Source of the DNA: a virus
Virus record (IMG/VR): IMGVR_UViG_3300043446_002748
Coordinates: 1-26,991 of that record
Reading direction: 5' to 3' (one strand)
DNA length: 26,991 nt
A program made the position numbers and the translations under genes. This document shows, piece after piece, positions 4,367 to 17,997 of the stretch. Numbering within the stretch: position 1 is the stretch's first letter; every line of letters starts with the position of its first letter. Under the pieces are notes generated by a model, which saw nothing but the letters and a program-made list of their open reading frames with translations, did no database searches and had not been told where the DNA came from.

Positions 4367-4422
4367 ACCACTTTAGAAACTGGACCACTCCTCTTGCAGG
4401 AGTGGTCCTAATCCAGTATAAT
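4367..4422 (+). promoter_or_regulatory. Dyad promoter P2 (drives the helicase/methyltransferase/nuclease unit)
   Basis: ACCACT (4367-4372), N6, ACTGGA (4379-4384); a 32-bp gap filled by an 11-bp stem hairpin; -10 TATAAT at 4417-4422; ATG at 4443. No further dyad promoter is seen until 13975, so this may feed about 9.5 kb. Confidence 0.65.
4382..4408 (+). terminator. Strong hairpin nested in P2
   Basis: GGACCACTCCT (4382-4392) and AGGAGTGGTCC (4398-4408) form a perfect 11-bp stem with a 5-nt loop. There is no T-run behind it (TAATCC), so it may act as a terminator, an RNA-processing signal, or simply insulate the promoter. Confidence 0.65.
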
Positions 4423-4442: not shown

Positions 4443-5837
4443 ATGAATCTCTTTCCTCATCAAATTCAGATGCTTGATGCTATTCAAGCAAATGACAAGG
4501 GTATTGTGAATAGTCCTACTGGGAGCGGAAAGACAATCACTTTTATCACCGATTGTCGTAGGTTTTTGTATCCTGGAAAAGTCATAGTTGTTGTTGCTCC
4601 ACAATTGATGCTTTCCGAACAGATTTTCAACGAGTTTGATAAGCATCTGTCAGACATTGATTTTTATTATCGTCAGGTTTCCTCTGAACCTAAAGTATTT
4701 CAACGTAATCGTAAAAATCTTAAATTTCGTATCACTCCTCCAAAGTTTGCCACAACAGTTGTAGAAGAAATTCGAGAGACTTATCGCATTGCACAGAAAT
4801 TGAAGAAACCTTTGATTTTGTTCAGTACCTACGATAGTTTGAATAGAATCGTTTCTTCAATGATTCCGATTGATGCTGTATATTATGATGAAGCACATAA
4901 TGCTACAACATCAAATGTTTTTAATTCGGTAAAATTTATGAGCAATCATTCTGTTCATAATTATTTCTTTACTGCAACTCCACGATATTCCGAATCTCGC
5001 AGTGCTGATGGTCCTGGAATGGACAATGAATCTGTTTTCGGAAAGCAGATTGTAAATATTCCATTTAGTGAACTTGTTCGTCAAGGAATTATTGTGAATC
5101 CTTTAATTCACCTGATGACAAGTGATGCTGATACAAATCATATGGATGAAGTTTCAGTATCGTTCAAAACAATTAAAGACCTTGTAAGGCACTATGAAGA
5201 AAAGCATTCGGAAACTTCTGCCCATAAGATTTTGCTTTGTATGCAAGGTACAAAAGTAATTCAAGATTTGTTGAATTCTGATTTGCAAACTTGGGCAGAA
5301 TCCAAAGGATACAAGGTGCTTTCAATTGATTCTGTAAATAATGGTTATGTCGATGGTAAAAGAAAAATCAATAAGTCTAATTTTATTAAAACTCTTAATC
5401 AACTTGGTGATGACCCCAATCAAAAAATGATTGTTCTTCACTATGCAATGTTGGGTGAGGGTATTGATGTTAAGGCATTCACTGGAGTTGTATTTTTCCG
5501 TAACACTCTTTCTTCTATCTTTGCAACACAATCTATTGGACGTGTAATTCGTTCCGCCCCAGGTAAGAAGTATGGTATTGTAACTATTGTTCAACACGAA
5601 AATAATACCTTGGAAAGTTATGAACTGATTCGTCAAATTGTTATTCAACTTTATCAGCAAGGTGTTCCAGTATCCGAAATCTTCACCGAAGTTCATGGGC
5701 GTGGAAAAGAAAATGAAATTATTGAAGATCTTGAGGATGATTTGAAGCGTCGAATTTTGGATTATCAAATTAATTTTGAACATACAAATGCTCTAAAAGA
5801 ACTTCTTGAAGCAGACATTGAAGAATTTGCTTTTTGA
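4443..5837 (+). CDS. SF2 DEAH-type helicase / DNA translocase, 464 aa
   Basis: Contains a Q-motif-like start (FPHQIQMLDAI), Walker A SPTGSGKT (24-31), motif Ia APQLMLSEQ (52-60), motif II DEAH (149-152), motif III TATP (177-180), motif V GEGID (338-342) and motif VI QSIGRVIR (363-370). This is the SF2 arrangement of restriction-enzyme translocases, UvsW-like and DEAD/DEAH helicases. All motifs for ATP hydrolysis look intact. It has no nuclease domain of its own. It is followed after 21 nt by a DNA methyltransferase and then a nuclease gene, so it is a good candidate for the motor of a multi-subunit restriction-like complex. A stand-alone recombination or remodelling helicase is the alternative. 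Confidence 0.9.
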   Translation: MNLFPHQIQMLDAIQANDKGIVNSPTGSGKTITFITDCRRFLYPGKVIVVVAPQLMLSEQIFNEFDKHLSDIDFYYRQVSSEPKVFQRNRKNLKFRITPPKFATTVVEEIRETYRIAQKLKKPLILFSTYDSLNRIVSSMIPIDAVYYDEAHNATTSNVFNSVKFMSNHSVHNYFFTATPRYSESRSADGPGMDNESVFGKQIVNIPFSELVRQGIIVNPLIHLMTSDADTNHMDEVSVSFKTIKDLVRHYEEKHSETSAHKILLCMQGTKVIQDLLNSDLQTWAESKGYKVLSIDSVNNGYVDGKRKINKSNFIKTLNQLGDDPNQKMIVLHYAMLGEGIDVKAFTGVVFFRNTLSSIFATQSIGRVIRSAPGKKYGIVTIVQHENNTLESYELIRQIVIQLYQQGVPVSEIFTEVHGRGKENEIIEDLEDDLKRRILDYQINFEHTNALKELLEADIEEFAF

Positions 5838-5858
5838 TTTTTAACACCATTAAACATT

Positions 5859-7115
5859 ATGATTACTCAACTTCCCACAATTGATTCTGTATTTGATAGG
5901 GCACGTGCTAAATTTCGTGCAGAATTTTCCAAGGGTATCAAACCTGTGGATAGTCGTCAACCAATTCCTGATGATCTTGCACGTGAAATGATTCAACAAC
6001 TTGTTGATTATGAAGTTCCTAAAGATGCACGGATTGGTGTTGTAGATGCTTTTCTAATTCTTTCCACCTATCTTAAAGAATCGGGATTCACTAATTTGAT
6101 TCTTCTTGAAAATACTCATCAGAACTTGACCGAATCTCAGCAAAAGTATTATAATAATGTAAAAAATTTGTGTGAAAAATCGGGAATTAAATATTACATT
6201 CCTCCGATGAACAACTACAATAGGTGTGATATGAAGTTTGATGTAATTATTGGAAATCCCCCCTATCAGAGTGATAACGGTGGCGGTTCTTGCCGTGGTT
6301 CAACCACAAACCCTTTGTGGTGGGAAATTACTAATGTTTCGGTTAAACTTTTGAAAGAAAATGGAATTCTGAGTTTTGTAACTCCAACTAATTTTCTTAA
6401 TGGTGGTGACCATTTTACTACTTTTACTTTGGGAAATGACCGCAAGTATGATTTAAAGTTTGTTGATTTCTCTGCTGACGATTATTTTAAAGTTGGTGTT
6501 CCTATTTGTCGTTGGGTTTTGAGGAATTCTAAAACAAAAAACAATCAGATTGAAGTCTCTGATGGAAGAACAATTAGTGCAGATAGTGCATTTAAGGTCA
6601 CCAAAGATTGTATTTTGGATGGTATTCTGAATACTCTATTTTCATATGATGGTGAAAAGTTAAAATTTAATACCAGTGATAGGTATGATTTTAAACCAGT
6701 CGAAAGTTATTTGAAAAAGCAAAATCTTCCTATTGAATGGGCAAAAGAACTTAAAGAAGTGAGAGATGACATTTATTGTTATCCTGTTAACAACAATGGC
6801 AAAATTAAATATTCACGTATAAAGTGGAAAAAAACTGGTGTTTGGAGGGTATTTTATCCTCAATTGCAAGTTCCTACTAAAATTACTGTCGATAAAGAAG
6901 CAGAAGCAACTGCAGCAACTTTCACAATGGTCTTTGATACTGAAGAAGAAGCAAATCTTACTAAAAGTTACTTGGAGTCTCCCATTTATCAATGGATTAT
7001 TGATAAAACACGTGTAAGTGGACGTGTTACAAATATTATTTCTAAATTTCCTAACGCTCCTATTGAATCGGTTCTTTCAGAATCTCAAATCGCTTACGTT
7101 CAATCTCAACTTTGA
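5859..7115 (+). CDS. Adenine-specific DNA methyltransferase, NPPY part plus C-terminal target-recognition-like region, 418 aa
   Basis: The motif DVIIGNPPYQ (NPPY at residues 133-136) is motif IV of gamma-class N6-adenine methyltransferases such as Eco57I and the methylase part of type ISP enzymes. The loop after it (GGGSCRGSTTNPLWWEI) and the following segment fit the same class. The C-terminal half, ending in SGRVTNIISKFPN, resembles a target-recognition/C-terminal region. A normal AdoMet motif I (D-P-x-x-G-x-G-x-F) is not visible in the first 130 residues; only a weak GVVDAFLIL strand is present. That missing motif is found in the separate gene at 7677. The gene lies between helicase and nuclease genes and overlaps the following unit by an in-frame TGATAATG junction. 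Confidence 0.85.
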   Translation: MITQLPTIDSVFDRARAKFRAEFSKGIKPVDSRQPIPDDLAREMIQQLVDYEVPKDARIGVVDAFLILSTYLKESGFTNLILLENTHQNLTESQQKYYNNVKNLCEKSGIKYYIPPMNNYNRCDMKFDVIIGNPPYQSDNGGGSCRGSTTNPLWWEITNVSVKLLKENGILSFVTPTNFLNGGDHFTTFTLGNDRKYDLKFVDFSADDYFKVGVPICRWVLRNSKTKNNQIEVSDGRTISADSAFKVTKDCILDGILNTLFSYDGEKLKFNTSDRYDFKPVESYLKKQNLPIEWAKELKEVRDDIYCYPVNNNGKIKYSRIKWKKTGVWRVFYPQLQVPTKITVDKEAEATAATFTMVFDTEEEANLTKSYLESPIYQWIIDKTRVSGRVTNIISKFPNAPIESVLSESQIAYVQSQL

Positions 7116-7117
7116 TA

Positions 7118-7690
7118 ATGCAACTTCAACACCCAGCGTCCTTTGATATTCCAGAACTGGATAAAATTTTGGAAGTAAATACTCTTGAAAATTTTATTAA
7201 AAATGTAGTGAAATACGGAAAAATTCAAGACCCAGATATCTATGAACCTCTTAAGTATATGGGAGATTGTTGGGAAGTATTTGCTGAATTCTTTTTTAAG
7301 TTTTTTAATGGTGACCATATCTTAACTTACACTGCAAACTATGATCCAAATTTGGGTGAGGATAGAGGTATTGATGGTCGTGGAATTTGCACATTAGATG
7401 CTAAACCTTGCGTTATCCAAAACAAATTCAAAGCAAATCCTAACACCTACCTTACAAATGATGATAATATTAGTAATATTGCTGCAGATGCAACCTTGAA
7501 TGAGAACATTGTTCCAAATGGTAAAAATATAATCATTTTTACTTCTTGTAAGGGTGTCCATCCAAACCACGCAATGTCTTCAGCACATTGTATTTCAAAA
7601 AAAGATATTGCTCGTAGAGTGAATGGGAATCTTGTATTTTGGAGTGATTTTAGAACTTTAATTCAGGAACAAAATAATGGCAAAAAATAA
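7118..7690 (+). CDS. Mrr-like PD-(D/E)XK restriction endonuclease, 190 aa
   Basis: Carries the spaced residues typical of Mrr-type nuclease domains: Glu57 in a helix, Asp86 in GEDRGIDGRG (80-89), and Gln-x-Lys at 101-103 in VIQNKFK, followed by a strand IIIFTSCKG. Mrr-like domains use D...QxK for metal-dependent cleavage and form the N-terminal domain of type ISP restriction enzymes. Here the domain is a stand-alone protein. ATG at 7118 was chosen; a TTG at 7112 is in frame. It overlaps the next methyltransferase fragment by 14 nt. A restriction role is inferred from neighbours; degradation of host DNA or anti-competitor activity are other options. Confidence 0.75.
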   Translation: MQLQHPASFDIPELDKILEVNTLENFIKNVVKYGKIQDPDIYEPLKYMGDCWEVFAEFFFKFFNGDHILTYTANYDPNLGEDRGIDGRGICTLDAKPCVIQNKFKANPNTYLTNDDNISNIAADATLNENIVPNGKNIIIFTSCKGVHPNHAMSSAHCISKKDIARRVNGNLVFWSDFRTLIQEQNNGKK

Positions 7691-8081
7691 TCATAATTTA
7701 TCTACTGGTTCTGAAATAGAAAGAAGCGATGAAAGAATCAATGAAACTGCAGAGGTTTTTACTCCTATAGAACTATGCAACAAAATGGTTCGGGAAATAC
7801 CAATTGAAATCCTTCAAAATCCAAATTCAACTTTTTTAGATAATTCTGCTGGTAGCGGAAATTTTTTAATATCTTTGTGTGATGAGTTAATTAAATATCA
7901 CCCAAAGGATCATATTTTAGATCATATGCTATATGCTGTAGAATTAATGGAAGACAATCACCAAGAGTTATGCAATCGTCTTGGAGTTTCTACAACTCAT
8001 AAGCATTATGTTTGTGCTAATGCCATCGAATATGATTACAACTTTGGAGAACCAGTTGGATTGGAAAATTTTTACAAATAA
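7677..8081 (+). CDS. Methyltransferase N-terminal half (FTP and AdoMet motifs, no NPPY), 134 aa
   Basis: Contains INETAEVFTP (motif X, FTP at 28-30), FLDNSAGSGNFL (motif I, LDNSAGSGNF at 54-63) and an acidic residue after the second strand in YAVELMEDN (Glu89), the signature order X-I-II of gamma-class N6-adenine methyltransferases. It stops at LENFYK before any motif IV. The frame ends with a normal TAA and no obvious continuation in another frame, so it looks like a true short protein rather than a fresh frameshift. It supplies the parts that the methyltransferase at 5859 lacks, so the two may assemble in trans. Confidence 0.8.
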   Translation: MAKNNHNLSTGSEIERSDERINETAEVFTPIELCNKMVREIPIEILQNPNSTFLDNSAGSGNFLISLCDELIKYHPKDHILDHMLYAVELMEDNHQELCNRLGVSTTHKHYVCANAIEYDYNFGEPVGLENFYK

Positions 8082-9116: not shown

Positions 9117-9292
9117 TGGACTACACTGAAGAATTTCCCTTTGATCAGTTTCCTTGGAAGTTGGTACATAAAGACGGAAAAGAAACTCGCAAGTGCTATT
9201 TTCAAACTGAAGAACATATGAAGAAGCACATTACACGATACAATCTTAAAAAGAAAGATTATACAATTGGATACAAATACGAAAATGACTAA
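9116..9292 (+). CDS. Hypothetical protein, 58 aa
   Basis: TGATG junction. Acidic, Phe-rich N-terminus (MDYTEEFPFDQFPW), then a basic, histidine-containing C-terminal half (EEHMKKHITRYNLKKKDYTI). Overlaps the sugar-nucleotide dehydratase gene by 8 nt. Not recognised. Confidence 0.6.
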   Translation: MDYTEEFPFDQFPWKLVHKDGKETRKCYFQTEEHMKKHITRYNLKKKDYTIGYKYEND

Positions 9293-10313
9293 ACGTGCTC
9301 TTATTACTGGTGGTGCAGGTTTTATTGCCCATCATTTGATTGGACAAATTCTTTCTAATACTGATTGGGAAATTATTACACTTGATCGTCTTGATTATAG
9401 TGGTAATCTTAATCGTCTTCACGACTTAATGCTTTCCTTTGATCCTGAGGTTCGCAAACGTGTTAAAGTTGTTCATCACGATTTAAAAGCAGAACTTAAC
9501 CCTCTTGTTCGCAGTGAAATTGGTTCCGTTGATTATATTCTCCATCTTGCTGCTGGGTCTCATGTTGACCGCAGTATCGAGTATCCTATGGAGTTTGTTC
9601 TTGATAATGTAGTTGGAACTTGTAACATTCTTGAATTTGCACGGGGACAAAAAGATAACCTAGAAAGATTCATTTATTTCAGCACAGATGAAGTATTTGG
9701 TCCTGCACCAAATGGTATCAAGTATAAAGAGAATGATCGCTACAATTCAACTAATCCATACAGTGCTACAAAAGCAGGTGGTGAAGAACTGGCAGTAGCA
9801 TATGAGAACACTTATGGTCTTCCTGTTTATGTAACACATACGATGAATGTGTTTGGCGAGCGTCAGCACCCCGAGAAATACATTCCAATGTGTATTCGTA
9901 GGATTCGTGATGGTGAAACTGTAAAGATTCATAGTGATTCTACAAGAACTATTCCTGGTTCACGTCACTACATTCACGCCGAAGACGTTGCATCTGCTGT
10001 TATTTTCTTGCTGAATTATGAGGGTAAGTTCGAACCTGCTTGGGGTAACGCTAAATGCCCTAAGTTTAACATTGTTGGTTCGGAAGAACTCAACAACTTG
10101 GAACTGGCACAAATCATTGCCAAATCCCAAGGAAGAGAATTGAGTTATGAACTCGTAGATTTTCACTCTTCACGCCCTGGTCACGACTTGCGTTATGCTC
10201 TGGATGGTGATAAAATGAAACAACTGGGATGGGTTCCCCAGAAGTCAGTTCGTGAGCGTATTTCTGAAGTGACTCAATGGACTCTTGAAAACGAACGCTG
10301 GATTACTCTATGA
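9285..10313 (+). CDS. NAD-dependent dTDP-glucose 4,6-dehydratase-like extended SDR, 342 aa
   Basis: Rossmann motif GGAGFIA (9-15), the STDEVFG segment (133-139) whose Thr-Asp-Glu triad marks NDP-sugar 4,6-dehydratases, and the catalytic YSATK (Tyr159, Lys163). Further family segments are LAAGSHVDRS, NVFGERQHPEKYIP and RPGHDLRYALD. Length is normal for RmlB-type enzymes, which turn dTDP-glucose into dTDP-4-keto-6-deoxyglucose in the cytoplasm. The ATG at 9285 places the Rossmann strand at the N-terminus; an upstream TTG at 9267 is less likely. The rest of an L-rhamnose pathway is not present, so the product may feed a host pathway, for example cell-surface sugar change. Confidence 0.88.
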   Translation: MTKRALITGGAGFIAHHLIGQILSNTDWEIITLDRLDYSGNLNRLHDLMLSFDPEVRKRVKVVHHDLKAELNPLVRSEIGSVDYILHLAAGSHVDRSIEYPMEFVLDNVVGTCNILEFARGQKDNLERFIYFSTDEVFGPAPNGIKYKENDRYNSTNPYSATKAGGEELAVAYENTYGLPVYVTHTMNVFGERQHPEKYIPMCIRRIRDGETVKIHSDSTRTIPGSRHYIHAEDVASAVIFLLNYEGKFEPAWGNAKCPKFNIVGSEELNNLELAQIIAKSQGRELSYELVDFHSSRPGHDLRYALDGDKMKQLGWVPQKSVRERISEVTQWTLENERWITL

Positions 10314-12914: not shown

Positions 12915-13121
12915 ATGACTTTGCCAAAAACTAGTAACGAAATCCTTACGGATGAAGAATGGGACGAACTTGTAGCACTCAAAGAAGCGATCACTTATCG
13001 TCCAGCATCTGTTTCTGCTAAAAAAATGGAAAAGTTTGCTGAGTTGATGGTTCGTTCACTTGAAGGTAAGTGTGATCCACCACCTCCTAAAAACTGGAGA
13101 GGGTCTTCTTTAAGTGAGTGA
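12915..13121 (+). CDS. Hypothetical protein, 68 aa
   Basis: ATG at 12915 preferred; ATG at 12882 is in frame and would add 11 residues. Helical (LTDEEWDELVALKEAI, SAKKMEKFAELMVRSLEGK) with a PPPPKNW tail. Its TGA lies just before the bilin reductase gene. Not recognised. Confidence 0.65.
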   Translation: MTLPKTSNEILTDEEWDELVALKEAITYRPASVSAKKMEKFAELMVRSLEGKCDPPPPKNWRGSSLSE

Positions 13122-13122
13122 A

Positions 13123-13740
13123 ATGATCGATCATATTATTGCTGAATTTTTTGAATTAAATAACATAATCGTAAAATCGAATTTAAAAAAAAATCATTTA
13201 TCTTTAAAGTCTTATATCTGTGATTCTGAACGATGTCATAAGATAAGATTTTGTAAATTTGAAGTTAAATCTAAATTTTATGCAGAAAGTTTAGTCATTT
13301 ATCCAGATTTTCACTATGAAACACCAATTTTTGGTACAGAATACCTTAAAATAGGTTCTAAAAGATATTTTGGGGCAATTGATTTTCATCCAATTACAGA
13401 TAATAAAAAATACTTAAAGTTTTTGGATATATTTCCAGATAAGAAAGAAATTAAAACCAGTGTTTATGATTTAAATAAATTTTTCTCTGATAAACTCTGG
13501 GTTCGAAGAAAAACAGAAGACTTTTATGATGAATATCAAATAATGTTAAAATGTTTTCTACATCAATATAAAAAATGTTTATATTCTGAAGAAAAAAATA
13601 TTATTACATTTGAGCAACAACAAAATGAATATAATTCTTATATGAAAACCAATGATCCAGCATATGGAATTTTGAAATCATATTTTAACAAAGATTTTGC
13701 TGAAGAATATATTAATAATTTTTTATTTTCCAATAAATAA
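13123..13740 (+). CDS. Ferredoxin-dependent bilin reductase (PebS/PcyA/PcyX family), 205 aa
   Basis: The protein matches the HY2/PcyA/PebS family by eye: a YPDFHYETPIFGTEY segment (60-74), AIDFHPI (85-91), FFSDKLWVR (120-128), and the family's C-terminus NDPAYGILKSYFN...EEYINNFLFSNK. These enzymes take electrons from ferredoxin and reduce biliverdin IX-alpha to phycobilins. Asp178 in TNDP aligns with the catalytic Asp206 of phage PebS. Where PebS has Asp105 (FGMD), this protein has Glu73 (FGTE). It is shorter than PebS (about 233 aa) at the N-terminus. The gene is visibly more A+T-rich than its neighbours, suggesting separate acquisition. ATG 13123 was used; GTG 13114 is possible. The specific product (PEB or PCB) cannot be told. 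Confidence 0.85.
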   Translation: MIDHIIAEFFELNNIIVKSNLKKNHLSLKSYICDSERCHKIRFCKFEVKSKFYAESLVIYPDFHYETPIFGTEYLKIGSKRYFGAIDFHPITDNKKYLKFLDIFPDKKEIKTSVYDLNKFFSDKLWVRRKTEDFYDEYQIMLKCFLHQYKKCLYSEEKNIITFEQQQNEYNSYMKTNDPAYGILKSYFNKDFAEEYINNFLFSNK

Positions 13741-14494: not shown

Positions 14495-15127
14495 ATGACT
14501 TACACTACAAATCGCCCTTTCCTTAAAAATCACAAAGTTCACGACTTTCATCAATCATTATCCAGAGAAAAAAGGATTATCGAAAGTGGTGAGCATCTTG
14601 CTGTCATTCATCAACTTAATATTGAGTTTGAAAAGATTGGTTTGAGGATTGACTTTGATAGCTTTGAAGATAATTATGGGAATGACAATCTATCTCAATT
14701 TAAAAATAAAGCAGGAGTAGATGCATCTTTTAACCTGATTTGTATTAAAACTGGAAAAATTGTCAAAGAAGGATTCACGATCGATTACAAATTCCGCGAT
14801 CCTAATGCTATTTGGGATGACTTTCTTGCGGAGGTTGTAAGTCAAGATTTTATTCGGTTTAATTCAAGAAAACCGATTGTGCAAGGTTGGGCAACTTGCA
14901 AACATAAGATTAATGATGCTATACTTTATATTCTTCCCTACCATAAAAAAGCAACTCTTGTAATGCGTGAAGAATTGAAGAAAGGATTTGAGAAAAATCG
15001 TTTTCCTCTTGATGATCACCGCCGCAAGATTGCAAAGAATAAAGGTTGGGATACTATCAGTTATACGATTGATTGGGATCGCCTAACTAAAGTATGTCCA
15101 AGCACAATTATATTCAATTATGAGTGA
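14495..15127 (+). CDS. Unknown protein, possible endonuclease partner of the next methyltransferase, 210 aa
   Basis: Mixed alpha/beta protein with strand TIDYKFRD (Asp97-x-Lys99, a possible nuclease D-x-K), VQGWATCKHKINDAILYILP and TLVMREELKKGF. The order acidic residue, D-x-K strand, then a W...K...DxILY strand is like some PD-(D/E)XK nuclease folds, but the match is loose. It overlaps the following methyltransferase gene by 8 nt, which is typical of restriction-modification pairs. Alternatively it is an unrelated phage protein. Confidence 0.55.
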   Translation: MTYTTNRPFLKNHKVHDFHQSLSREKRIIESGEHLAVIHQLNIEFEKIGLRIDFDSFEDNYGNDNLSQFKNKAGVDASFNLICIKTGKIVKEGFTIDYKFRDPNAIWDDFLAEVVSQDFIRFNSRKPIVQGWATCKHKINDAILYILPYHKKATLVMREELKKGFEKNRFPLDDHRRKIAKNKGWDTISYTIDWDRLTKVCPSTIIFNYE

Positions 15128-15794
15128 TGTAAAACTTTATAACGACGATTGTATGAATGTGCTCCCTTCTCTTGCGGATGGGAGCATTTCACTTACTCTT
15201 ACAGATATACCATACGACGAGGTAAATCGTAAGAGTGGTGGATTGAGAAATCTTGATAAAAGTCATGCGGATATTATTACTTTCCCACTTGATAATTTTA
15301 TTGATGAGGTTGTTCGTGTAACTTCTGGGAGCATTTATATCTTTTGTGGATCAGTTCAGGTCTCACATATTCGCAACCGATTGATAGAACACGGTTTATC
15401 TGTGAGGCACTGTATATGGGAGAAAACTAACCCTTCTCCTATGAATGGACAACATATCTGGCTTTCAAGTATAGAGAACTGCGTGTTTGCCAAGAAGTCT
15501 GGTGCCATATTTAATGAGCATTGTAAGTCTGCTGTGTGGCGTTGTGCAACAGAAAGATATAAAGATCATCCTACACCAAAACCTGTTAAATTAATGGCAA
15601 GATTGATTGAAGCAAGTTCAAATGTTGGTGATACTGTGTTAGATCCTTGTATGGGAAGTGGTGCGATTGGTGTTGCTGCAAAACAATGTGGTAGAAAATT
15701 TATTGGTGTTGAAATGAACTTTGACTATTTCAAATTGACAGAGGAAAGAATTAACAGTCAAACTGGCAGTATTTTATCTTTCATGGACAGTTAG
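15120..15794 (+). CDS. Beta-class DNA methyltransferase (N6-adenine or N4-cytosine), 224 aa
   Basis: Motif IV LTDIPYDE (TDIPY 28-32) comes before motif I LDPCMGSGAIGVAA (174-187), with PTPKP (151-155) between them; this permuted order marks beta-class DNA methyltransferases (DpnA/YhdJ-like). The first residue of the usual DPPY is kept and the second is Ile. It methylates adenine N6 or cytosine N4 with AdoMet. Length is normal for the phage form. The dyad of P4 begins within its last codons. Confidence 0.88.
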   Translation: MSDVKLYNDDCMNVLPSLADGSISLTLTDIPYDEVNRKSGGLRNLDKSHADIITFPLDNFIDEVVRVTSGSIYIFCGSVQVSHIRNRLIEHGLSVRHCIWEKTNPSPMNGQHIWLSSIENCVFAKKSGAIFNEHCKSAVWRCATERYKDHPTPKPVKLMARLIEASSNVGDTVLDPCMGSGAIGVAAKQCGRKFIGVEMNFDYFKLTEERINSQTGSILSFMDS

Positions 15795-16889: not shown

Positions 16890-16940
16890 AGAAAAACTGC
16901 TTTTCGTTTCATCCTTCATTTGGTTTCTTCACTGGGGTCA

Positions 16941-17417
16941 ATGTCTTACGTTCAAATTTCTGGATACGGTTATTCTAAACGCCTCTGTGAGGACGTTACC
17001 ACTTGGTTTCTGAATCGTTTTCTGCCCCGTCATAAGATTGAGGTGGAGATTCTCCATCGTGGTCTGAAACGTGAGGCAGTTTATGGTTACTGTGACTATG
17101 TGGGTGAATCACGTCGTCCCCGTGAGTTTCTGATTGAACTTAATACCTATATGGATGAGGAGTTGTATATAAAAACTCTTTTGCATGAACTGGTCCACCT
17201 GCGACAGTGGGTAGTCGGTTCACTGCAGGTCCGATACGGAAAATTGTGTTATTCTAAAGAACCTGTGGAAAAATACGACTATTGGCATCAACCACACGAA
17301 ATAGAGGCACGGGAACAGGAAGAAACCCTATACCTGGAGTACCTGTTTGAGAAGAATGGTTGTGAATCGCAGGAGGATGTGATAAAATATCTTCCAAATC
17401 GTTTGATGGTGGTATGA
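16941..17417 (+). CDS. SprT-like zinc metallopeptidase, 158 aa
   Basis: Zinc motif HELVH (82-86, in TLLHELVHLRQW) plus a downstream EIEAREQEE segment that can supply the third ligand, as in SprT/Spartan-like and related phage peptidases. ATG at 16941 gives MSYVQISGYGYS. Phage homologues are common, and their substrates are mostly unknown; a DNA-protein crosslink or host-protein role is only by analogy. The zinc-ribbon C-terminal part of SprT is missing. Confidence 0.8.
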   Translation: MSYVQISGYGYSKRLCEDVTTWFLNRFLPRHKIEVEILHRGLKREAVYGYCDYVGESRRPREFLIELNTYMDEELYIKTLLHELVHLRQWVVGSLQVRYGKLCYSKEPVEKYDYWHQPHEIEAREQEETLYLEYLFEKNGCESQEDVIKYLPNRLMVV

Positions 17418-17418
17418 G

Positions 17419-17997
17419 ATGGTTAAGAAACTGGACAGCAGCAAACTGATGTATTCTGAAGGAAATAATGATGAATGTTACACACCAAACTACGGTGTAG
17501 CACCCATTCTCAAATATATTCCTAAAGATGCAAAGGTATGGTGCCCATTTGATACCAAAGAGAGTGAATTTGTCAAGCAGATTGGAGCACAAAATTTAGT
17601 CATTTCAACACACATTTCAACGGGTCAAGACTTTCTAACATATGATCCAAACTTTGAATGGGATGTGATTGTATCTAATCCACCATTTACAAACAAACGA
17701 AAGTTCTTTGAGCGAGCACTATCATTTGGCAAACCATTTGCTCTGATTATGACCAATACTTGGTTAAATGATTCTGCACCAAAGCAACTGTTTAAGGAAA
17801 AAGATCTGCAGTTGCTGATGTTTGATAAGCGGATGAAGTTTCATAGTCCTGATGGTCGTCCAAATGATAAGATCACGTTTAGCAGTAGTTATTACTGTTG
17901 GAACTTTCTACCAAAACAAATCATAATGGAAGAACTCGCTGTGCCACCTTCCAAACTGGCACAGAGAACTAGCAGCGAGGCAGTTCTTCCCCTATAA
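17419..17997 (+). CDS. Phage DNA N6-adenine methyltransferase (NPPF type), 192 aa
   Basis: Contains ECYTPNYGV (19-27), VWCPFD, a degenerate AdoMet region, and motif IV VIVSNPPF (NPPF 87-90) followed by TNKRKFFERALSFGKPFALI. This is the short phage adenine methyltransferase type that lacks a separate recognition domain. The last 20 codons run through the dyad and hairpin of P7, and the stop TAA (17995-17997) lies inside the -10 box TATAAT. Self-protection of phage DNA is the usual role. Confidence 0.8.
   Translation: MVKKLDSSKLMYSEGNNDECYTPNYGVAPILKYIPKDAKVWCPFDTKESEFVKQIGAQNLVISTHISTGQDFLTYDPNFEWDVIVSNPPFTNKRKFFERALSFGKPFALIMTNTWLNDSAPKQLFKEKDLQLLMFDKRMKFHSPDGRPNDKITFSSSYYCWNFLPKQIIMEELAVPPSKLAQRTSSEAVLPL

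Follow-up and report, generated by a model that had tools for sequence, protein, structure and literature searches.

The window analysed here is a 26,991-base record of the IMG/VR virus collection, IMGVR_UViG_3300043446_002748, whose gene content is that of a T4-like cyanophage (a Kyanoviridae-like contig). At positions 4443-8081, the feature under study, four contiguous open reading frames (ORFs), all on the + strand, encode a helicase, a large subunit with the methyltransferase motif NPPY, a nuclease and a small protein referred to below as the half. The helicase gene is followed by a gap of 21 nt and the remaining genes overlap by up to 14 nt. We consider it fairly probable that the four genes specify one phage-borne, ATP-dependent restriction-modification-like complex, with a methyltransferase divided over two chains, which would cut unmarked DNA. 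A first-pass annotation had described them as a phage-borne, multi-subunit restriction-like module; all four ORFs and the motifs it named (SPTGSGKT, DEAH, NPPY, D86, Q101-x-K103 and LDNSAGSGNF) are where it placed them, and 28 linked loci, the conservation of key residues and the swapping of the recognition part bear the description out.

In the proposed mechanism the half, supplying the lobe that binds S-adenosylmethionine (SAM), and the catalytic and recognition lobe of the 418-residue protein would form one N6-adenine methyltransferase. The phage would use this enzyme to mark its own DNA, the target being specified by the exchangeable C-terminal region. Helicase and nuclease would share the recognition subunit to detect unmethylated target sites, using its pseudo-SAM N-lobe as docking site, and would translocate and then cut DNA lacking the mark. 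That DNA would most likely belong to competing or superinfecting phages, possibly also to the host. The features are as follows (aa = amino acids).

4382..4422, +: perfect 10-bp inverted repeat, 4382-4391 / 4399-4408, then TATAAT at 4417-4422 (read from the sequence)
4443..5837, +: superfamily 2 (SF2) helicase/translocase subunit, 464 aa (Pfam ResIII/DEAD 5.9e-15; PHROG 16)
4512..4535, +: Walker A motif SPTGSGKT, residues 24-31 (sequence motif)
4887..4898, +: DEAH box, residues 149-152 (sequence motif)
5859..7115, +: large methyltransferase subunit, catalytic lobe plus recognition region, 418 aa (Eco57I 7.8e-15; PHROG 3689)
5859..6230, +: pseudo-SAM N-lobe of the large subunit, residues 1-124 (alignment and AlphaFold2 fold order)
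6255..6266, +: catalytic motif IV, NPPY, residues 133-136 (NPP invariant in 28 homologues)
6267..7112, +: catalytic C-lobe and target-recognition region of the large subunit (operon-to-operon identity comparison)
7118..7690, +: PD-(D/E)xK-like nuclease subunit, 190 aa, alternative start TTG 7112 (PHROG 7683, function unknown)
7373..7426, +: nuclease catalytic signature D86 ... Q101-x-K103 (invariant in 28 sequences)
7677..8081, +: SAM-binding half-methyltransferase, 134 aa, motifs X-I-II-III (PHROG 4376, labelled unknown; weak N6_Mtase match, 1.7e-3)
7752..7766, +: motif X region EVFTP in the half (invariant in 11 homologues)
7836..7865, +: SAM-binding motif I LDNSAGSGNF in the half, residues 54-63 (motif in homologues)

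The two chains of the predicted methyltransferase

The 134-aa half stops after motif III, and the conserved match of the large subunit to known enzymes begins at motif IV. Judged by this partition of motifs, the METHYLTRANSFERASE is split, the half being the SAM-binding lobe and its neighbour the NPPY lobe with the recognition domain. Profile comparisons place the two proteins one after the other: the half matches residues 28-83 of CamA and the large subunit, starting from its own residue 122, residues 157-279. Half and large subunit likewise cover 67-154 then 190-291 of the PADLOC profile PDLC03335, 270-338 then 357-454 of MADS mad2, and 735-799 and 809-864, respectively, of phrog_9133. The motif I and NPPY of a gamma-type N6-adenine methyltransferase are present only when both proteins are taken together.

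Searching IMG/VR with the half brought up 353 relatives, from which 80 loci were kept; 93 distinct halves were analysed. Motif I of the GxG type is present in all 93 (including L018, whose DNSVGSGNF was not caught by the pattern), and a script located an NPPY-type ORF within 3.5 kb of 86, in most cases immediately upstream and overlapping. L049 and L089, counted among the 86, are contig-edge cases, where the partner given is a distant unrelated methylase. Among the seven halves without a scripted partner, four lie at most 320 bases from the end of their contig, L104 has a partner overlooked by the filter, and L009 and L010 are truly without. In 37 of the scored partners no more than 29 residues precede NPPY, and those of the P-SSM2 type begin right at the motif (about 8 residues before it). 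Other scored partners have a degenerate or unrelated N-terminus, and none of the scored partners passed a strict motif I pattern. Apart from L009, L010, L011 (see below) and the contig-edge loci, motifs I and IV thus lie on different, co-occurring chains.

A natural fusion occurs in Aeromonas phage PX29, whose protein PX29p083 carries the NPPY lobe first and the SAM lobe second on one chain (Pfam N6_Mtase at residues 286-338, slightly below cut-off). This supports the prediction that half and large subunit make one active enzyme. In Klebsiella phage KpV477 the half is separate and the NPPY lobe bears a GIY-YIG domain (1.9e-15), and a Curtobacterium contig has an NPPF lobe beside a half. P-SSM2-type phages carry the half and its NPPY partner with neither nuclease nor helicase, and other phages carry the half with GIY-YIG-helicase proteins. 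The small protein, annotated at first as a second methyltransferase half, is indeed a methyltransferase half; it is better described as the SAM-binding half of a split enzyme, in a family wider than this cluster.

The family of the half seems to belong mainly to phages. A bacterial origin was rejected: a survey of 84,980 species genomes yielded just three loci, two on contigs of metagenome-assembled genomes. Decay to a remnant is ruled out for the family by the invariant motifs and by a ratio of non-synonymous to synonymous substitution (dN/dS) of 0.09-0.23.

The large subunit was modelled by AlphaFold2 with a pLDDT of 89.3, and Foldseek matched it to M.BseCI (7e-13) and also to CamA and M.TaqI. 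Its N-lobe, about 124 residues, has its strands and helices ordered as in a Rossmann SAM lobe, and the glycine-rich motif I loop is missing; a dN/dS of 0.09-0.25 indicates purifying selection. The lobe is present in all 37 loci with a helicase module, and 37 of the 38 scorable lobe-bearing loci have the module; all 32 scorable pairs with a short partner lack the lobe and none of them has the module (Fisher 4e-19, uncorrected for relatedness). The sole lobe-bearing locus without a scored module is L011, where the neighbouring genes CC03_53/54 look like a split helicase. In six loci with a different long N-terminus there is no helicase module. The lobe would therefore be a docking site for the helicase-nuclease module. 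As a separate observation, a helicase module is also missing where about 265 residues of the partner precede NPPY.

The complete N-lobe in the folded model, together with nearly invariant D63 and E84, could also mean that the large subunit is active alone and that the half has some other role, such as SAM sensing or regulation. In nine isolates of the phage species ACG-2014f the half is also retained at a locus that has no partner. This arrangement is improbable: P-SSM2-type partners, with about 8 residues ahead of NPPY, cannot bind SAM canonically on their own, PX29 fuses both lobes, and the profile match of the large subunit starts only at residue 122.

Other architectures were seen beside the half. 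At L061 (4679-8014) and L007 (2196-5420) one protein of 1074-1111 aa joins helicase and NPPY lobe and is followed by a separate half; these proteins are nearly one-chain restriction enzymes minus the SAM lobe, and their start is GIY-YIG-like by eye, with no Pfam hit. In three of the loci whose partners have about 265 residues ahead of NPPY (L074, L088 and L091) a protein of about 204 aa, possibly 2-oxoglutarate/Fe(II) oxygenase-like, lies between the NPPY gene and the half.

Linkage to the nuclease and helicase

A scan of IMG/VR for the nuclease family gave 27 loci, and its relatives in the phage collection are all from Synechococcus phages. By profile annotation, helicase, NPPY subunit and half are contiguous with the nuclease in all 27 except L032-L034 and L038, the last being a distant nuclease relative without the other three genes. 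Complete four-gene operons number 28, a set that includes the window, Bellamy (its duplicate left out), ACG-2014f, S-CAM7 and loci derived from the half; L031 and L035 are identical, leaving 27 distinct operons, and, with the rest related to one another, the independent events are fewer still. A nuclease genetically linked to a methyltransferase, as in restriction-modification systems generally, is thus found at 28 loci, and a chance neighbourhood is ruled out by them. Most complete operons have the order of the window (helicase, methyltransferase, nuclease, half), three (S-CAM7, L036 and L037) have nuclease, methyltransferase, helicase, half, and in ACG-2014f the half precedes nuclease, methyltransferase and helicase. 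These several orders exclude a fixed gene order or single operon type. The order has been reshuffled yet the linkage kept, which argues for a functional unit. A search for the four-gene order in other phages, proposed with the first-pass annotation, upheld the linkage and showed that the order varies. Genes occurring independently in relatives had been named as evidence to the contrary; the small protein does so, as do nuclease and helicase together in one virus (L032-L034), and the operon as a whole does not. In close pairs dN/dS is about 0.06-0.32 for all genes, ie the operon is under purifying selection.

In the alignment of 28 nuclease sequences E57, D82, G84, D86, Q101 and K103 are invariant; loss of conservation at the catalytic residues, which would have spoken against the cluster, was not seen. 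The AlphaFold2 model has a pLDDT of 92.9; in Foldseek, restriction endonucleases (HindIII, FokI, BstEII, EcoO109I, BamHI) take its top nine places. From the D86/Q101/K103 signature and the fold, the protein is likely a member of the PD-(D/E)xK family. The window nuclease had no meaningful Pfam hit, and a sequence search against solved structures gave nothing meaningful. The original label, Mrr-like nuclease, is sound as to the conserved D86/Q101-x-K103 and merely suggestive as to Mrr.

The helicase motifs are conserved in 23 homologues. The protein, a member of PHROG 16, is 32% identical to the phage helicase UvsW, with an alignment that ends at residue ~413 and a C-terminal extension of about 50 aa that UvsW lacks. 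Below an E of 1e-5, the Type ISP restriction enzymes LlaGI/LlaBIII (5ffj 4e-9, 4xqk 2e-8) are its only solved (PDB) relatives. That it is the phage's own UvsW was ruled out, as Bellamy (with a separate true UvsW, gp83) and S-CAM7 carry both. The likeness to Type ISP modules claimed at the outset therefore stands for the helicase, with the correction that it is also close to the phages' own UvsW.

The resemblance to UvsW, weak Foldseek hits of the nuclease to Hjc resolvases amid the restriction enzymes, and the frequency of split pairs with neither nuclease nor helicase would suit a system that is not for restriction at all: the methyltransferase pair would serve self-protection (anti-restriction), and helicase and nuclease would be co-transcribed recombination or repair proteins. 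We regard this as rather unlikely, given the separate true UvsW in these phages, the unrelated GIY-YIG-helicase proteins in the same position beside the same half, the N-lobe that tracks the helicase module, and the match of the helicase to Type ISP enzymes.

Exchange of the recognition region and of the cassette

Between operons that are nearly identical elsewhere, the whole part of the large subunit that follows NPPY is exchanged. Loci L014 and L015 are 96% identical in helicase, 99% in N-lobe, 99% in nuclease and 98% in half, and 41% in the part after NPPY. Over the 213 pairs whose nucleases are at least 60% identical, mean identities are 65.7 (helicase), 60.4 (N-lobe), 36.5 (C-part), 72.8 (nuclease) and 72.3 (half). 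A diversified recognition region against conserved subunits is a property of restriction-modification systems in general.

Whole cassettes are exchanged as well. The half does not vary among 24 ACG-2014f isolates, a set cleared of RefSeq duplicates, and the adjoining cassette is found in five states: nuclease, methyltransferase and helicase in 13; a GIY-YIG-like helicase with an NPPY protein in two; a 178-aa with a 125-aa protein in five; the 125-aa gene alone in one; and nothing in three. The flanks are 96-99% identical among the four isolates compared directly. Intergenic repeats of about 70 bp border the cassette, and promoter-like repeats are also found throughout the ACG-2014f region. In S-CAM7 isolates the flanking gene is 99% and the half 94% identical and the cassette is different. 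Separately, in the five isolates that have a 178-aa protein next to the half (L010 6486-7022), that protein reads like a PD-(D/E)xK nuclease (HDRLIDGILTEIKFG) at a locus with no NPPY partner.

Different versions of the kit in near-identical sister viruses suggest, because of the exchange pattern and the dispensability, that its target is foreign DNA, and probably DNA of rival viruses. The same enzyme could instead degrade or disable host DNA early in infection while the phage DNA is methylated, as chlorovirus restriction enzymes are held to do. The anatomy fits this equally well, and the T4-like cyanophage group recycles host nucleotides. Coexisting near-identical isolates differ in cassette, however, and nine of the 24 have no NPPY partner at the locus; a dispensable, diversifying system of this kind suits variable opponents better than a constant host target, and we think a host-directed purpose unlikely.

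Occupied, alternative and empty states at one site, with repeats of about 70 bp at the borders and GIY-YIG nucleases, common in homing elements, in sister cassettes, are also what a selfish, homing-like element would leave if its nuclease cut empty-site phages and it spread by repair. A homing nuclease has no need of a methyltransferase, a helicase or a swapped recognition region, the linked methyltransferase and the exchange of the C-part of one subunit alone are hallmarks of restriction-modification, and the promoter-like repeats extend beyond the cassette. Such an element is very improbable.

Several observations weigh against a single restriction-modification-like complex with a two-chain methyltransferase. 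In the structural model the large subunit is a complete Rossmann methyltransferase with its own pseudo-SAM lobe, which would complicate access of the half to the NPPY pocket. The L011 partner, CC03_55, has by eye an apparent motif I of its own (YDPAMGGGQYL), the sole such partner. The nine ACG-2014f isolates retain the half, which may be a decayed remnant there, with no NPPY partner at the locus. In the one virus represented by L032-L034, no NPPY gene or half was detected near the nuclease and helicase. The best Foldseek hit of the nuclease, HindIII, is not significant (E 0.083), and the Mrr matches in Pfam are weak (of 28 homologues, 3 match Mrr_cat_2, with a best E of 0.023, and 2 match Mrr_cat, with a best E of 0.054).

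We hold more tentatively, and a little short of probable, that T4-like phages may own a superfamily of restriction-modification systems, in which a universal SAM-lobe subunit is shared by many exchangeable partners and at least two unrelated nuclease-motor types (a PD-(D/E)xK nuclease with a UvsW-like helicase, and GIY-YIG-helicase), and that phages of one species swap cassettes and attack each other's unmarked genomes. If so, obligately lytic-type cyanophages would carry complete, specificity-switching restriction systems, and restriction between phages would be a directly testable selective force in the ocean, for which the ACG-2014f isolates with flanks 96-99% identical already supply occupied, alternative and empty sites. 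The system would also provide an adenine methyltransferase that is split by nature and can exchange its SAM lobe among partners, a graded set of forms (orphan pair, pair plus motor, fused and permuted enzyme), and testable functions for PHROGs 7683 and 4376 and many 'hypothetical proteins' in GenBank.

Known systems and the surroundings of the operon

In the Type ISP enzymes LlaGI and LlaBIII an Mrr-family nuclease, an SF2 helicase-like ATPase, a methyltransferase and a recognition domain cooperate (PMC4666363). The phage helicase is related to theirs and so has the SF2 motor in common. A Type ISP enzyme, however, is a single chain with a coupler, whereas the phage system is four separate ORFs in the window and its relatives, in variable order, with a split methyltransferase, no coupler seen, and in lytic-type phages. 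From its sequences we read it as working like a dismantled Type ISP enzyme, outside the class for want of a single chain. With Type I systems (HsdR/HsdM/HsdS) it shares separate subunits, an exchangeable recognition region, and an SF2 motor and PD-(D/E)xK nuclease; it differs in that motor and nuclease are on separate proteins and in that HsdM is undivided, with no break between motifs III and IV. No HsdS-like gene with two recognition domains is among the four, and recognition lies in the NPPY subunit.

The CglI system (R.CglI, H.CglI and a methyltransferase) likewise has nuclease and helicase-like ATPase on separate proteins; in the portion of its description consulted a split methyltransferase is not mentioned (PMC5737866). 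M.EcoKI-like adenine methylases of jumbo phages are gamma-family enzymes, some circularly permuted as PX29p083 appears to be, and a two-protein split or linkage to a helicase/nuclease cassette is not described in the parts consulted (PMC7824862). CamA, M.TaqI and M.BseCI resemble the large subunit in fold, and the motif X-I stretch of the half and the motif IV stretch of the large subunit map on CamA; unlike the phage proteins, these are single-chain enzymes with an intact SAM site. The PhiPA3 intron endonuclease is also a phage nuclease acting in the competition of co-infecting phages, but is a homing endonuclease without a methylation partner (PMC11620839). Searches of open-licence papers for a split methyltransferase in phages, or for restriction-modification encoded by phages, turned up no account of this system.

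The element at 4382..4422 is likely the operon promoter region. A consensus promoter scan listed no + strand promoter there and was uninformative; at the equivalent cassette of ACG-2014f, hairpin-plus-TATACT intergenic repeats flank the genes and stand between them. The most likely nuclease start is ATG 7118, because homologues begin there, and the numbering of D86, Q101 and K103 agrees with it.

Adjoining the cluster is a nucleotide-sugar epimerase/dehydratase gene (9267-10313). Further along the window are a ferredoxin-dependent bilin reductase (13114-13740; Pfam Fe_bilin_red 7.6e-25), a phage auxiliary metabolic gene, and two more methyltransferase genes (15120-15794 and 17419-17997), one a complete N6_N4_Mtase (3.8e-27) and the other a short NPPF protein with weak EcoRI-methylase/Eco57I matches. 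A possible SprT-like metallopeptidase lies at 16920-17417 (weak, under the Pfam cut-off). A dispersed repeat of about 37 bp with AACTGGCACA occurs at 129, 23616, 23897, 24270 and 24860, and resembles the promoter-like intergenic repeats that border the ACG-2014f cassettes (L003).

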